Assembly (NCBI GenBank): GCA_027049035.1
Contig: JALTVI010000107.1
Span: 73,824 to 137,823 of the forward strand
DNA: 64,000 bases
Reading direction: 5' to 3'
Source: Sulfurovum sp.
GTDB lineage: Bacteria; Campylobacterota; Campylobacteria; Campylobacterales; Sulfurovaceae
Shown here: positions 1 through 43,648 of the stretch, piece after piece
Layout of the letters: each line of letters starts with the position of its first letter
Numbering within the stretch: the first letter of the stretch is position 1
Translations under genes and position numbers: made by a program
Notes under the pieces: model-generated
Database searches by the model: none
What the model was told of the DNA's origin: nothing
The model's input: the letters and a program-made list of their open reading frames with translations, nothing else

Positions 1-161
1 ATTCTGGTAGCTGCCTCGTTGATGGCTTCCTGTTGCACGGCAACGTACCCGCTTTTCACCGATGTCTGTATGAGCAGCGGTGCAGACATCAGTACAATTC
101 CTATAATGACAATAGCGAAGATAAGCTCGATCATCGCAATGGCTGGACGAAGTTTCTGCAT
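1..161 (-). CDS. Type IV pilin-like / prepilin-type N-methylation protein, partial
   Basis: The gene runs off the left edge, so only the first 53 codons are visible. Its ATG at 161 directly abuts the stop codon of the upstream giant gene, so the two are co-transcribed and probably translationally coupled. The N-terminus has a short basic leader (MQKLRPA) and then IAMIELIFAIVIIGIV, the prepilin peptidase site and N-terminal helix of type IV pilins and type II secretion pseudopilins. The conserved Glu is at +5 if cleavage follows Ala7. Ala rather than Gly at -1 is, as I recall, common in Campylobacterota. Pseudopilin and minor pilin cannot be told apart without the C-terminus. Confidence 0.8.
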   Translation of the reverse strand, partial: MQKLRPAIAMIELIFAIVIIGIVLMSAPLLIQTSVKSGYVAVQQEAINEAATR

Positions 162-3100
162 TTACCAACCCACTCTTTTATTTTTATGTGTATCAGCATT
201 GTCATTGACAACATGTCCTGTTTCCCCTTCTCCGGCCCATCCGCTTGTACCGATGAATCTGACACGGTAGAATGGTGAAGGGGCACTGCTGTTGAATTCA
301 TTGTAAATCAGCCACCTGTCTGTGTGGACTGCATTTGGATAGAGCAGCAGCTCAACAGGTACGGTCATTGGCAGTGTCGGATTGGAACCTCTGTCGACGA
401 ACAGTGTATTGTTCTCTCCGTTAGAAGCATTGATTGCTACACTGGCATTGCTGAGATAAGGTGAGCCGGAACCCTCAGTCAGCGTACCGATCGTCAGACC
501 GATACTTCCGTCACCGTCACTTGTATTGTGGTCTACCGCCTTCCACCACTGTATTTCATTGCTTTGCAGACTCAGTCCGCGTGCATTACAGCCACTGATT
601 CCAAGGCCGCCGGCCGTAATAGGGGTTGCATCGCAGTAGATAACTACAGAAACTGGCGTCGTGGCCGATGATGTGGCAATATTGTCATAGAATGGCTGGG
701 CAGGCTTGACTCTTCCATAGTAGAAGTGAACACGCTGATCTATGTTGAGCAAGCCGTAAATTTTATGGTCTGGTACCATATTGACGGCAATATCCGGTTT
801 GTTCGCATTGCTGAGATTCATATCTCCAAAGGTGATACGCACCGGGTTGAGAGGTATATTGATATAGCGGTCAAAGTTATAGCCAAGATCCATGAAAATC
901 GCTCCCTGCATATCGCTTCTGAAGTTGGCAGCATTCTGGGTGACAACACTGTCCGCAGCGATAGTGAGGCTATTGTCTTCTCTTGGGAGTATAATGTCTG
1001 TCTGGTCAGTCTCATTGGTGTCTATAAGGTCATAGCGCCAGGTGTAGAGTGACGAGACCGGATCCATAAAGGTATGGCTCAGGTTCATGTCTACCGGTTC
1101 AGCATAGCAGCCGGCTACATAGTTGGTCAAGAGTTGACCGGTGTAGCTTTCTGCAAAGAATTTACCCTGAATGTTGAACGACATATTCTCATCGGCCTGG
1201 GTTCCGGAACTGGTGTAGTAGCCTTCCGGATACGGGAAGCTCTGGCTCAGGGTGTTCATATAGACAACAGAACCGTTCGCATCACGCATAGAAGGACCAG
1301 CCCCGTAGGAGAGGCCGGAAACGTCGTAGCTGTACGGATGGAACTCCAGTTTCAGCGGAATGTAGGTTCTTCCGGTATCATGGACATTTGTGGTGACACA
1401 GCCCTGGATATGGTTTGAGCCTTCTGCGTAGGTTGTATTGCTGTCTTTTTCACAATCTGTAGCCGGCGTACCGTTGGAAAAGAGCCAGGTAGAGGCAGAG
1501 GTGTGATGTGTCAGTACGGCAGGATCCCAGTCTGCGCGTGTCCAGTTCTGATCGGAGATAATATAGGCATATTCACCTACCTGTTCCACCGGATCAGGGG
1601 TATATACTTGAGGAGCTGCGGCAATGAGGTTCGTTCCGTTAAAGAGAACGGTATTTAACGGTTTCCCGCTTGTATCATTACAGCCCGATACGCTTCCCGA
1701 AGGACTCCACTCGCGTACGGACGGTCCGCTGTTTACATTGTCAAAGATCATGAAGTAGCGCGGTACAGCACTGTCGCTTCTGAAGCTGCTGGCATTGATT
1801 TCGTAGCGGTATTTATAGCCTGCGGCCAGTTTGGCTGCATTGACCGTATGGGAATCAGCCAGTTCAATGGCCGGCGCTGTGGTACTGTTGTCTTCGTTGG
1901 TATCGTAAAGTTTCACAGAGAACGATTCCGGTCTGATGGAGAAGTTGTCTCTGGAGCATACGGGCGTGCCGTAGAAGGCTCTCAGGCAGGAGTAACAGCT
2001 GTCACTGCCGCTTGCGACCCCAGTCGTACAGTCGGTTGTACAGTTGCCGTCAGGGCCTTCATGGGTTGCATAGTTGTCGGCATAGAGCGTTTCGAAACAG
2101 TCATTATCGTACCGGTCTGTACAGTGGTGCTGAAGGACGCTGCCGTCTGGCTGTGAAAGGTACCATGTCCGGAATGCGGTATTGCGAATGGCGACATTAA
2201 ATCGCAATCCGGTTAAGTCAACAGAATAGGTATTGTTGAACGGTACGAAGAACGGTACGGTGATGTTCGAGTCGGGGTTTTTACAGGTAAGGTTGACATC
2301 TCTACTGAAGAGTCCGGCATTGTAGAGTTCAACCTCCACCGTCGTGTCGCTGTTCATCAGGCTTGTCAGGTCGGCAGGGTCGTAACTGAACATTTTGACA
2401 TTGAATGCCCTGTCGGCAATCTGTGTCTGCAGATTGTACGGAATGCCGTTCGTACTTGTCGTATCGGAGATGACATTGAAAATACCAAGTGCAGGGAAAT
2501 AGCCGCCACTGTTTTTACAAATATGGGTTGAGTCAAAAACCATCGCTTGAGGTACAGGTCCTGATCCGTAATCAACAGTAAATTGTGCTCTCAGGTCAAA
2601 AGTGGTATCCACACTTCCGTTCAAATCATTGTTGAACTTGAAGTAGGTTGTCTGATATGGGGCAATACTTCCTCCCTGTCCCGGTCCAGCGTTCTCCCCA
2701 ATGTAAATGCCAAAGCCTTGAATACTTTCATTGAATGTCTGGGAAGTTGCTGGCTCATAGCGGTTGACACCATTTGGTGCAACCATTGTTGAACCAATAA
2801 TATATTGCGTTTGGTTGGTATCGGCTATTCTGTAGCTGACATTGACGTCGTTGAGTACAAAATCCCCTTCATTGGAACGAATACTGATCCGTGTCGTCAT
2901 TGGGGTATTCGTATATATTCCAAGGTTTGTATTAATCTCATTGTCTGTTGATGGAATGATAATGCCTCCCACATCCAGAGTATAGTCGTAACAGAGAGTG
3001 GGACGGTAAAGTTCTGTAGTAAATGCAATCATACTTGGAATGATATAGTCTCCATCAGACCACCATCGAAGATACATGCTGGTGGTAGAGCGTGGGAAAT

Positions 3101-5324
3101 TGCTTACAATATTGCTAATATCAAAATTGTCGACATCAACCCCGACATTATTGTTAGCAAGATCATTTTTGTGTCCGGGAATAGTATCACGGGAGACATT
3201 GCTTAGAACAGCATCGAAGACATTGGTGTTGTTGCCTGTTTCAGGAATTGCAATCCACGGTCCTGAATTGCTCAGGCTTATGTCTACTCCATCCGGGCTG
3301 TAATCATGTTCACCCTCTCCTGAGAAGATTGAAAGGTGGGCATTGACTGTACTACCTGCCGAGGGTAGTTTGAATCCGGATATTTCAATAGGCGTAGCAC
3401 TCGATTTGCTTACGAGATGCCCCATGCCTCCATAGATAGTGATATTTCTCGGTTTGCCAAGGAATGGATCTTCGGCATAGATGACTACAAGGGACCATCC
3501 ACCATAAACACCGGGGGTATATTCTCTTCCCTCTTCAGTTGGCAGGTTGGCTACAGTAAAGGTATGTTTTCCAGCATTGAGGTTGCTGCTGCGAAGTAGG
3601 GAAGTGACATCGGCTATAGATGAATAGGTAATACCGTTTAAGGATTGCAAAGAGTAAACTTTATATGCAGTTACTGTATTATAATTGCCACTATCTATTT
3701 TGAGTTTAATTTTATTGACTTTTGCGTCATTTTCTAAATCGACGGATGTGATACCTGTTCCCGTTCCTGTTTCTACCCATCCAGAAGCACTCCCGTAGTG
3801 TAAGTCTGAAACACAACCAGAGGTTTGCCGTCCTCCACATTCACTGGAGTTCTCCCACGCAAAACGTCCTTGCCAAATAAGCCCTGCCCATAAAATACCC
3901 TGACCTCCATTCTGAGCATAAATATCCGGCAAAGTAATAAAGGATGAAGAGGAGTTCCATGTAGTTGGATCATTATCGATATCAATAAATTTGGTTACAT
4001 AATTGTTGGATGTGGCATCATAAGTCAAATTTGTTGTATCGACACACTGATCTTCACTTGTCGCATAACCAGTTCTAAGAGTTGTCAGACACAATACCGT
4101 GTTACCCATAATTTTGTAGTCACCAATGACGTTTTGCGTAGATTCCGGATTGATCTGGGTAAACCCAAGAGTACCTTCATCTTCATAGTCTGTCACAACC
4201 TGCACAATAATTGTAACAATCGCAGAGGACGATCCTGAACCGGTACTATCCTGAATTGTATATTGAAAATTTACAGTGCCGGTAAAGCCTGTATCCGGTA
4301 CATAGGTGAAGCTGCCATCACTGTTCAGTGTGACCGTTCCACTGTTAGGCTGGGTGTACGCACTGACATACTTATTGAGTCCAGAATCGTTAGATAAGAC
4401 ACCGGGGGCACTTACTGTCAGCGTTTGGTTCATGGATGTGGTATAGGTATCGTTAGCAGCCTGTAGTACAGGTGCAGAAACAATGATGTTGAAAGTTGTA
4501 CTGGCATCGGGCGGTGTCCCGTTTGATACCGTTACAGTAACCGGGTATGTACCTACAGTTGTCGGTGTTCCGCTGATTACACCAGTTGAGGAGTCTATTG
4601 TAAGCCCCGGAGGCAGCCCCGTTGCACTATAGGTTAGATTATTCCCTGTAGTATAGCTTGAAACATCAAGTGAAAAAGTGGTTCCAACATCGACATACTG
4701 GTCGGGTATCGGTGAAATGGTTGGTGGTGCAGGTGGAGTATACTCAATTCTAAGTGTAGCATTTTGATAAGTGCCCTGGTCACCATTATAGTTATCGCAA
4801 ATGTATAATGTCCAATTGCCTTGTGAATCTTCACCATCGAAGTTACTTAGTGCTTGGTATGGCCGTCTATCAACAAGAGTTGTATGGTTATTGTAGTCAT
4901 TTTGTATTGATGTCGCAGCACTATCGTCATATATGACATGCAGATTGTCTGCATTATTATAGTAGTCTTTTCGGGATAGTTGAACCCACGTACTAGAGGG
5001 TGATCCTAAATATATATCGAGATCACCCCTATATGAATGTATAAGGTTAAGTTCCATAGTAACATTGGTAATAGTGACAGAGGAGGAAATATTTAATGTT
5101 CTAACCAAGCATCGGTTATCTCGAATGGGGCCTGATATGGAATTTGTGGCTGTAATAGTGGCAGCCTGAAGTGATATGGGAATAAAAGATATCAAAATAC
5201 AGAATTTAATATAACTTAATAGCATTCTTTTTCTGTTTGCTATATTTGTATGAGAGGCTATCAAGAGTTTACCAAAGAAGTAGGGAAAAAGTAGTAGTCT
5301 GAAAATAAAATAAAATTTTTTCAT
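162..5324 (-). CDS. Giant secreted adhesin-like protein with P domain and Ig-like domains (MSHA/MshQ-like)
   Basis: About 1720 residues. A hydrophobic N-terminus ends in a signal-like stretch (CILISFIPISLQA). It is followed by a proprotein-convertase P domain (about 55-205, with FDGEDSQGNWTLYICD), a putative-Ig repeat (about 205-290, with SATGLPPGLTIDSSTGVISG) and a cadherin/Big-like repeat (about 290-385, with SDGSFTYVPDTGFTG). The rest is long, Cys-rich and mostly unrecognised. The segment CSRDNFSIRPESF recalls MshQ-type pilus-associated proteins. I chose ATG 5324 because AAAGG lies 8 bases before it; GTG 5333 overlaps that site, and ATG 5225 would leave a cleaner signal peptide but has a poor ribosome site. 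A GEMM riboswitch lies in the leader and a pilin gene follows. Role in attachment is inferred. By eye the upstream half of the gene is more AT-rich than the downstream half. Confidence 0.8.
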   Translation of the reverse strand: MKKFYFIFRLLLFPYFFGKLLIASHTNIANRKRMLLSYIKFCILISFIPISLQAATITATNSISGPIRDNRCLVRTLNISSSVTITNVTMELNLIHSYRGDLDIYLGSPSSTWVQLSRKDYYNNADNLHVIYDDSAATSIQNDYNNHTTLVDRRPYQALSNFDGEDSQGNWTLYICDNYNGDQGTYQNATLRIEYTPPAPPTISPIPDQYVDVGTTFSLDVSSYTTGNNLTYSATGLPPGLTIDSSTGVISGTPTTVGTYPVTVTVSNGTPPDASTTFNIIVSAPVLQAANDTYTTSMNQTLTVSAPGVLSNDSGLNKYVSAYTQPNSGTVTLNSDGSFTYVPDTGFTGTVNFQYTIQDSTGSGSSSAIVTIIVQVVTDYEDEGTLGFTQINPESTQNVIGDYKIMGNTVLCLTTLRTGYATSEDQCVDTTNLTYDATSNNYVTKFIDIDNDPTTWNSSSSFITLPDIYAQNGGQGILWAGLIWQGRFAWENSSECGGRQTSGCVSDLHYGSASGWVETGTGTGITSVDLENDAKVNKIKLKIDSGNYNTVTAYKVYSLQSLNGITYSSIADVTSLLRSSNLNAGKHTFTVANLPTEEGREYTPGVYGGWSLVVIYAEDPFLGKPRNITIYGGMGHLVSKSSATPIEISGFKLPSAGSTVNAHLSIFSGEGEHDYSPDGVDISLSNSGPWIAIPETGNNTNVFDAVLSNVSRDTIPGHKNDLANNNVGVDVDNFDISNIVSNFPRSTTSMYLRWWSDGDYIIPSMIAFTTELYRPTLCYDYTLDVGGIIIPSTDNEINTNLGIYTNTPMTTRISIRSNEGDFVLNDVNVSYRIADTNQTQYIIGSTMVAPNGVNRYEPATSQTFNESIQGFGIYIGENAGPGQGGSIAPYQTTYFKFNNDLNGSVDTTFDLRAQFTVDYGSGPVPQAMVFDSTHICKNSGGYFPALGIFNVISDTTSTNGIPYNLQTQIADRAFNVKMFSYDPADLTSLMNSDTTVEVELYNAGLFSRDVNLTCKNPDSNITVPFFVPFNNTYSVDLTGLRFNVAIRNTAFRTWYLSQPDGSVLQHHCTDRYDNDCFETLYADNYATHEGPDGNCTTDCTTGVASGSDSCYSCLRAFYGTPVCSRDNFSIRPESFSVKLYDTNEDNSTTAPAIELADSHTVNAAKLAAGYKYRYEINASSFRSDSAVPRYFMIFDNVNSGPSVREWSPSGSVSGCNDTSGKPLNTVLFNGTNLIAAAPQVYTPDPVEQVGEYAYIISDQNWTRADWDPAVLTHHTSASTWLFSNGTPATDCEKDSNTTYAEGSNHIQGCVTTNVHDTGRTYIPLKLEFHPYSYDVSGLSYGAGPSMRDANGSVVYMNTLSQSFPYPEGYYTSSGTQADENMSFNIQGKFFAESYTGQLLTNYVAGCYAEPVDMNLSHTFMDPVSSLYTWRYDLIDTNETDQTDIILPREDNSLTIAADSVVTQNAANFRSDMQGAIFMDLGYNFDRYINIPLNPVRITFGDMNLSNANKPDIAVNMVPDHKIYGLLNIDQRVHFYYGRVKPAQPFYDNIATSSATTPVSVVIYCDATPITAGGLGISGCNARGLSLQSNEIQWWKAVDHNTSDGDGSIGLTIGTLTEGSGSPYLSNASVAINASNGENNTLFVDRGSNPTLPMTVPVELLLYPNAVHTDRWLIYNEFNSSAPSPFYRVRFIGTSGWAGEGETGHVVNDNADTHKNKRVGW

Positions 5325-5389
5325 TATTCGCACCTTTATATTGCCCAGTTGTAACTAGGTTGAAGTTCGTATGTACATCGAGAAAGATG

Positions 5390-5488
5390 CCATAAACAAA
5401 ATGTTCATGGTAGGCAGCCCGGCTGTCTTGGTAAGACCCGTGGCTTTCCGTCCCTGCCTCGCGGCAGGTTTGGCTTTTCTCCATACAC
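5390..5488 (-). promoter_or_regulatory. Class I cyclic-dinucleotide (GEMM-I) riboswitch
   Basis: Read on the minus strand, the leader of the giant gene contains the GEMM core. It has AAACC, a P2 helix CCTGCC/GGCAGG closed by a GCGA tetraloop, then GGGACGGAAAGCC, then a P3 helix CGGGTCTT...AAGACAGCCGGG. P1 pairs GTGTATGG (5481-5488) with CCATGAAC (5403-5410). The same CCATGAAC can instead pair with GTTTATGG (5390-5397), which gives a competing hairpin just downstream. GEMM-I RNAs bind c-di-GMP, or cGAMP in some Geobacter members. The base I align with ligand-reading position 20 is G, which favours c-di-GMP, but that alignment is from memory. No poly-U terminator follows, so control may act on translation or RNA stability. 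Confidence 0.85.
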
Positions 5489-5668
5489 TACTTAACTAAA
5501 TATACCATATCTAAGATAAAACAGATATAAAATAAGTTCAGTTAATAGTTAAATATACAATTAAATTTACATATTTAGTCGGGTATTATGTTTTGAAACC
5601 GATCGCTTTATTGAAATGTATGCCCTTGGGTATAGCTTCGGCCAAACGTTGAAGTGTAGAAAATGCAT

Positions 5669-6004
5669 TCAAAGCAAAAGCTTACAGAGTGATTGTTGTA
5701 TGGTCTCAAGCTCCTCTTGGGAGAGTGAGGCAAGTTTCTCTTTGATACGTGTTTTGGAGAGGGCTCTGATTTCGTTGATACAGGCATCGCTGTTATGGTG
5801 GAGTGCATCTCTTTTTCCAATGGTGTACCTGTAGGGCAGGGCATCTTCTACGATGACAGTGGAGAGAGGAATGACAATGCAGGTTTCCAAAATGGCGTTC
5901 TCGTCAGGTTCACTCATGATAATTGCCGGTCGGAGTTTGCCCATCTCTCCACCCTTCGCCGGATTGAAGTCGACAAGGTGTATGTCCCCTCTACAGAATG
6001 CCAT
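5669..6004 (-). CDS. MazF/PemK-type toxin endoribonuclease
   Basis: 111 residues starting at MAFCRGDIHLVDF. The N-terminal GDIHLVDFNPAKGGEMGKLRPAI segment is the hallmark of the PemK/MazF fold (Gly-Asp then K-x-RPAI), and IVIPLST is the second conserved strand. Family members cleave mRNA or other RNAs at short sequences and are neutralised by the partner antitoxin. The start at 6004 overlaps the end of the upstream antitoxin by 14 bases, as usual for such operons. An in-frame start six codons earlier (6022) is less likely because the family motif begins right after MAF. The cleavage specificity cannot be read from sequence. Confidence 0.85.
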   Translation of the reverse strand: MAFCRGDIHLVDFNPAKGGEMGKLRPAIIMSEPDENAILETCIVIPLSTVIVEDALPYRYTIGKRDALHHNSDACINEIRALSKTRIKEKLASLSQEELETIQQSLCKLLL

Positions 6005-6242
6005 CGCCAATGCTCCCGTCACCTACTGGATCTGTCTTTTGCGCCTTGGCTATACGTTTAAGAAGTGTCTCTTTTTTCTGCTTTTCGATCTTTTCTATGA
6101 ACTTCTGGAACTCCCCTTTTAGGGTTGCAGGTACAAAAAAGCCGACCTCCTCTTTTTTTCGTCCATCCAGTATGTGTATGATTTCGGATGTCTTGAAAAA
6201 GTCGCTTGAGTTCCGCATTTGACTTAATGTCGTTTCAATCAT
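5991..6242 (-). CDS. Antitoxin of the MazF-type pair
   Basis: 83 residues, first gene of the leftward toxin-antitoxin operon. It begins after AAAAGGAAATGC and overlaps the toxin start. Residues 20-40 (SEIIHILDGRKKEEVGFFVP) would be the N-terminal part. The charged helical stretch EFQKFIEKIEKQKKETLLKR and flexible Gly/Asp tail look like a toxin-wrapping region. I do not recognise a classical MazE AbrB fold, so the DNA-binding family is uncertain. Assignment rests on size, position and overlap with a clear MazF. Confidence 0.7.
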   Translation of the reverse strand: MIETTLSQMRNSSDFFKTSEIIHILDGRKKEEVGFFVPATLKGEFQKFIEKIEKQKKETLLKRIAKAQKTDPVGDGSIGDGIL

Positions 6243-26638: not shown

Positions 26639-26825
26639 CCTGGATGGTTCGACCACTGTAATATGGGGTCCAACATTTCGTATTTGTGGGACATGTAGCG
26701 AGCACTGTGTGCGGACACTTCCGTTTGAGCCTGGAAACAGGCGAGGAACTGCCCCCTAAGGTGCTCCTCTCTCCTGCACCGTTGGCTTATTAGGGCCGAC
26801 TGATATACAGAACGGCCATCCGGGC
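26639..26825 (+). ncRNA. ssrS: Probable 6S RNA
   Basis: A TATAAT at 26626-26631 precedes about 187 bases with no gene. The ends pair: CCTGGATGG at the 5' side with CCATCCGGG at the 3' side, extended by TTC/GAA. This gives one long rod, the shape and length of 6S RNA, which binds sigma70 RNA polymerase through a central bubble. A GC-rich hairpin (GAGCCTGGAAACAGGC) sits near the middle. Position just before purD is, as I recall, where Campylobacterota carry 6S. RNase P and tmRNA signatures are absent. The identification needs a covariance search. Confidence 0.65.
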
Positions 26826-43201: not shown

Positions 43202-43378
43202 GATAGGTTTACCTTTCCTCCAGGAGTCCTCTACGGAGAGTATCGATCATCAGTTTCTACCGATGCTCCGGCATATTACTGGTCAGGATTTGGCGTAAGT
43301 CCTGTGCAAGGTTATTGTGGTAGAATACCGCACTCATTTTTACAAGTGGGAATTCATTATACCAATCAGGAGGTCATT

Positions 43379-43648
43379 ATGGCTTTGGATCAGGCGAAAA
43401 AAGCAGAAATTATTGCTAAATACGCAAGAGGCGAAAACGATACAGGTTCAACAGAGGTACAGGTTGCTCTGCTTACAGAGAGAATCAAGTACCTGACTGA
43501 GCACCTTAAAACAAACAAGAAGGACCACTCTTCAAGACTCGGTCTACTCAAACTTGTCGGTCAAAGAAGAAGACTGATGAGATACCTTAAGAAAGTGGAC
43601 ATCGAAAGATGGCACAAGATCAAGGACGAACTCGGAATTCGTAACTAA
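43379..43648 (+). CDS. rpsO: 30S ribosomal protein S15
   Basis: 89 residues. [58 protein letters not shown] and a tail [13 protein letters not shown] are the S15 pattern. It starts at 43379 after AGGAGGTCATT. A TAGAAT lies about 55 bases upstream. It binds 16S rRNA in the small subunit. Confidence 0.98.

Follow-up and report, generated by a model that had tools for sequence, protein, structure and literature searches.

Whether attachment in Campylobacterota is set by a riboswitch, and if so by which ligand and through which expression platform, is the question raised by the leader of a very large gene in a sulfur-oxidising, Sulfurovum-type bacterium. At vents and sulfidic sites, Sulfurovum and its relatives are the dominant colonisers of surfaces, and no description of how they commit to attachment was found among the papers retrieved. 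The window analysed here is a stretch of 64,000 nucleotides from a Sulfurovum sp. genome assembly of 2.49 Mb that is 99.8% complete; two proteins encoded at its riboswitches share 97% and 87% identity with Sulfurovum sp. proteins. As argued below from the sequence, the leader very probably holds a cis-acting class-I c-di-GMP (GEMM-I) riboswitch in front of an adhesin/minor-pilin operon.

A complete GEMM-I aptamer in the leader

Scanning of the whole window with the Rfam covariance models (cmscan) gave four matches, one of which is a cyclic-dinucleotide aptamer. It lies at positions 5483-5409 of the minus strand and matches RF03167 (c-di-GMP-I-GGC) over the full model (positions 1-80 of 80) with 69.8 bits, against a gathering cutoff of 59 (E = 1.8e-14), and RF01051 (c-di-GMP-I, the GEMM-I model) at the same site, again over the full model (1-87 of 87), with 66.9 bits against a cutoff of 35. 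The RF03167 match was obtained again when the 351-nt leader was scanned by itself. A sequence-only reading had placed a GEMM-I aptamer at 5403-5488, a range that fits well, and had named the lack of a covariance match above the gathering cutoff as one ground for refutation; the leader exceeds the cutoff of both models. Elsewhere in the window a purD RNA motif (RF01069, 84.9 bits) was matched at 26695-26825 of the plus strand; the RNA at the purD-motif site in Epsilonproteobacteria is reported to be 6S RNA and not a purine riboswitch (PMC3847290). A ribosomal S15 leader match at 43313-43435 (+) scored 39.5 bits, which is exactly its gathering cutoff.

Including P1, the aptamer extends over 5485-5406 (-), and the minimum free energy (MFE) of this segment in single-strand folding is -30.6 kcal/mol (z = -3.2), a value equalled by none of 200 shuffled sequences. 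The MFE structure consists of P1, a short helix on the pocket side, P2 with its GCGA loop and P3, and thus has the three-helix junction. The 5′ strand of P1 is UAUGGAG at 5479-5485, and its partner at 5413-5406 (CU-A-CCAUG) doubles as the 5′ arm of a competing hairpin downstream, as seen from the fold and the sequence. P2 is the hairpin CCUGCC-GCGA-GGCAGG at 5453-5468 with a GNRA loop, and P3 is the hairpin GCCACGGGUC...GACAGCCGGGC at 5417-5444, both on the minus strand and both agreeing in sequence, model match and MFE fold. The GCGA-capped P2, the GGGACGGAAAGCC and the closing of P3 by CAGCCGGG that had been picked out by eye are all present. Relatives were tallied as 106 distinct Campylobacterota aptamers in the numbering of the Vibrio cholerae Vc2 riboswitch, and among these the pair 22-45 beside the pocket is C-G in 88, U-A in 16 and U-G in 2; since it varies on both sides, the fold is supported. 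The segment 5483-5409 (-) is a complete class-I c-di-GMP aptamer.

The operon behind the aptamer

The end of the aptamer is separated by 85 nt from an ATG at 5324 on the same strand, which places it in the 5′ leader of a gene at 162-5324 (-) for a giant secreted protein of 1,720 aa. A GTG at 5333, the start given in the list of open reading frames, is unlikely because it falls inside the Shine-Dalgarno sequence AAAGGUGC. The protein has a P-domain of the proprotein-convertase type (P_proprotein) with Ig-like domains alongside (Pfam He_PIG and Big_9), and its domain types, size and linkage suggest a putative pilus-linked adhesin. Neither the full protein nor its C-terminus matched an MshQ-type family in the Pfam and NCBIfam scans, and its identification as MshQ was dropped for want of a family match; the AlphaFold model of the C-terminus had a mean pLDDT of 38, too poor for use, and was discarded. 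A second homologue of the N-terminal part is encoded in the same genome (G000:C72:3037-3834, plus strand) and contains one in-frame TAG.

Four prepilin-like genes with class-III signals follow (231, 277, 148 and 217 aa), almost wholly beyond the window. Only the first reaches it, with its start (MQKLRPAIAMIELIFAIVI...) at 1-161 (-) and the remainder outside (locus L020, 5361-7985). The designation as a giant adhesin and pilin locus holds. The genome also encodes ATPases of the T2SS/T4P type, one of them with an MshEN domain, together with a secretin, and thereby has a pilus-type machine that could serve the prepilins. Directly upstream of the leader is a PemK/MazF-like toxin gene (5669-6022, minus strand), overlapped by a small open reading frame (5991-6242) for a possible antitoxin.

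Pocket bases and ligand preference

Aligned to the model, the minus strand has G at 5474 in the place of Vc2 G20, A at 5447 in that of A47 and C at 5414 in that of C92. G20 is found in all 106 parsed Campylobacterota aptamers and A47 in 105; the sole deviating count, L221, is a parsing error, as its sequence has the A. The tally at position 92 includes mis-parsed aptamers such as L206 and L209, and C92 is therefore given for the window copy only. The pair 21-46 is C-G in the window and in 104 of the 106. An exact-core scan of GTDB contigs, which reports presence and not frequency, had Desulfobacterota, Gammaproteobacteria and named Sulfurovum, Sulfuricurvum and Sulfurimonas records among the matches listed, and the inverted C21-G46 pair was discarded as a hallmark of Campylobacterota since many contigs of the first two groups share the core. 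In Vc2 the contacts are G21, C46 and A47, and the substitution G20A confers binding of cGAMP (PMC7288161, PMC6274999). By its bases, G20/A47/C92, the pocket described here is of the ordinary c-di-GMP type.

Two other ligand assignments were weighed. The aptamer might belong to the c-di-GMP-I-GGC class and share a possible altered ligand preference of that class, for which the better score of RF03167 over RF01051 could be cited. This class was reportedly defined in a 2017 paper on riboswitch variants, and its consensus and name suggest that A47G is the defining change, GGC standing for G20/G47/C92. It is precisely here that the window departs from the model, with an A at model position 37 where the consensus is G, and the relatives keep A47 likewise. 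The better score of RF03167 stems from columns other than that of A47, and membership of the class with an altered preference of this kind is very improbable.

The second assignment, a GEMM-I variant sensing 3′,3′-cGAMP, draws on the shared scaffold and on the pilM riboswitch of Geobacter, which sets pilus genes by cGAMP (PMC9262584). The change that brings about cGAMP binding is G20A, and the presence of G20 and absence of A20, here and throughout the parsed relatives, favours c-di-GMP over cGAMP. The genome has 19 GGDEF matches, of which the 15 with a readable motif all carry the canonical Asp of diguanylate cyclases; the Ser of the Hypr type occurred in none of these 15, the other four domains being degenerate and unreadable in this respect. 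With G20 and GGDEF domains of the Asp type, cGAMP specificity was rejected as highly unlikely, and c-di-GMP is retained as the ligand in what follows.

Distribution and linkage in Campylobacterota

Among 397 genomes drawn across Campylobacterota, 43 have at least one aptamer matching RF01051; they belong to 13 of the 68 genera, all within the order of the window genome. The sequence-only reading did not recall such a riboswitch from the phylum; this holds for the literature, where no description of GEMM-I in Campylobacterota was found in the open literature searched, and fails as a statement of rarity, given these 43 carriers. A 2013 study of 5′ UTRs in Campylobacter jejuni found TPP as the sole metabolite riboswitch, citing a prediction that such riboswitches are missing from related bacteria (PMC3847290). 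The kind of riboswitch is well known, and it is the wider set in environmental Campylobacterota that is little described.

The first genes behind 98 scanned Campylobacterota aptamers are diverse, with PAS, PilJ, DUF11, outer-membrane (OMP) barrel, Ig-like, P-domain, CAP, SdrD-B, outer-membrane efflux and prepilin peptidase types recurring. Individual assignments may be wrong, since in each case the longest reading frame close to the aptamer was counted as the first gene. Proteins of about 260-310 aa with a PilJ domain (type IV pili methyl-accepting N-terminus) are encoded behind GEMM-I in six genomes (L211, L212, L219, L243, L274 and L279). At L228 and L257, from two genomes in the same family, the aptamer lies upstream of a prepilin peptidase gene (Peptidase_A24). 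A gene for an HU-type DNA-binding protein, an unusual target, begins 155 nt after the aptamer in two genomes of one genus (L271, L285). Two tandem GEMM-I aptamers precede one gene in L259 (G225:C1:356375 and 356486).

The order aptamer, giant protein and prepilin genes was found in seven genomes of two families, with 72-89 nt between aptamer and ATG. In the six genomes other than that of the window, Blast retrieved full C-terminal relatives behind aptamers (L209, L234, L281, L242 and L289, and L224 in another family), each followed by prepilin-like genes, and over the aligned parts the adhesins of the seven are 26-42% identical. Aptamer and homologue are also paired in L080 (Sulfuricurvum sp.) and L119 (Sulfurovum sp.). 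Nine other strong homologues came from a protein search, and in eight of them the aptamer was absent from the retrieved stretch, some of which may miss the leader; the ninth, L189, has an aptamer and is the same G285 locus as L209. With many homologues lacking an aptamer, the linkage is recurrent and not obligatory.

Proposed expression platform and mode of control

Downstream of the aptamer, the 3′ strand of P1 can be drawn into a hairpin of nine pairs at 5410-5390 (-), CCAUGAAC/GUUUAUGG, which is followed by CAUCUUUCUC and is weakly terminator-like. Since both need the same strand, this hairpin and P1 are, by sequence, mutually exclusive. Next on the minus strand is a putative anti-Shine-Dalgarno element, GCAUCUUU at 5383-5390, with eight pairs (one of them G-U) to the Shine-Dalgarno region AAAGGUGC at 5330-5337, a pairing that appears in the fold with P1 enforced. 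AAGGUG is present in this region in five of the seven orthologous leaders. The sequences of the platform hairpins are not conserved at the level of single bases in the orthologues. A possible -10 element, TATATT, lies just upstream of P1 at 5499-5504 (-), and a scan for the sigma-70 consensus gave no promoter match.

In partition-function folding the accessibility of the Shine-Dalgarno region of the window was 0.23 with P1 enforced versus 0.36 with P1 excluded. Across the seven leaders the differences between the two ensembles were small, with no consistent trend in the six orthologues; because the P1 states differ so little and so inconsistently, folding does not settle whether the switch is ON or OFF. 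Both signs exist among class-I c-di-GMP switches (PMC6366702).

A translational switch through the anti-Shine-Dalgarno element is the preferred reading of these sequences. Intrinsic termination is the alternative and is possible, through the one weak hairpin that overlaps P1 and that is not conserved as such in the orthologues. In a translational switch, surface contact would lead diguanylate cyclases to raise c-di-GMP, and binding of the dinucleotide would close the P2/P3 junction and stabilise P1 (5485-5479 with 5413-5406). Formation of P1 would take its 3′ strand away from the hairpin at 5410-5390, and the state of P1 could then alter whether the anti-Shine-Dalgarno element pairs with the Shine-Dalgarno region, placing synthesis of adhesin and pilins under the control of c-di-GMP. 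High c-di-GMP generally favours adhesion, and from this biology an ON switch with adhesion increased at high c-di-GMP is expected. Control of adhesion by c-di-GMP is, on the features of the locus, likely.

That the fold is real but a decayed, non-switching relic without gene regulation is scarcely credible, for although several homologous operons lack the aptamer and the platform has no clear terminator and folds ambiguously, the invariant pocket bases are all intact, the score is high, and spacing and linkage are kept in seven genomes despite the divergence of their adhesins.

Eight aptamers in one genome

The aptamer of the window is one of eight GEMM-I aptamers in its genome, all above the RF01051 cutoff and six also above that of RF03167, and they are mostly sited at genes for surface proteins. 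One of the other seven precedes an FhaC-type transporter and a haemagglutinin with a TPS domain (two-partner secretion). Another precedes a small protein and then a large adhesin with Ig repeats, with TolC and ABC genes (type I secretion) further on, in a locus that partly consists of N. The remaining five are found at genes for a LysM-NlpC/P60 hydrolase, a PAS protein, a rhodanese protein, an outer-membrane beta-barrel protein and a 677-aa protein without family.

From this arrangement we consider it quite possible, if still tentative, that environmental Campylobacterota have a riboswitch-based c-di-GMP regulon in which a single genome places three mechanistically distinct export routes for adhesins (pseudopilin-linked, two-partner and type I) under separate GEMM-I switches, eight in total and with translational anti-Shine-Dalgarno platforms, a mode of surface commitment as yet undescribed in the phylum. 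Should the eight leaders prove responsive to c-di-GMP, they would define an attachment regulon that is recognisable in uncultured Campylobacterota by sequence alone, and would offer ready c-di-GMP reporters for the phylum.

Comparison with known systems

The Vibrio MSHA locus resembles the operon in having a large putative adhesin (MshQ) near pilin-like genes and in the action of c-di-GMP at the level of the pilus, there through MshE, with an ATPase bearing the MshEN domain here too; for the giant protein itself the likeness is one of layout only, with no Pfam or NCBIfam tie. The c-di-GMP-I-GGC class (RF03167) is nearest by covariance score and shares P3, CACGGGUC...GACAGCC, and the general length, whereas the aptamer of the window lacks the A47G that appears to define the variant. 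The cGAMP-sensing GEMM-I riboswitch at pilM of Geobacter has the same scaffold and the same site before pilus genes but a pocket of the A20 type, where G20 is invariant here.

A c-di-GMP riboswitch before pilus or adhesin genes is also known from Clostridioides difficile (Cdi-2-4/pilA1) and Bacillus thuringiensis (Bc2/cap) (PMC6366702), in contrast to the present case in Gram-positive hosts, with other protein families and with demonstrated transcription-termination platforms. Closest in the aptamer itself are Vc2 and Vc1 of V. cholerae (RF01051), which share the fold, the G20/A47/C92 pocket, the GNRA-capped P2 and the position in leaders of surface or environment genes. The pair 21-46 is G-C in Vc2 and C-G here, an orientation common in Desulfobacterota and Gammaproteobacteria too, and the host is a member of the Campylobacterota in which another operon would be regulated.
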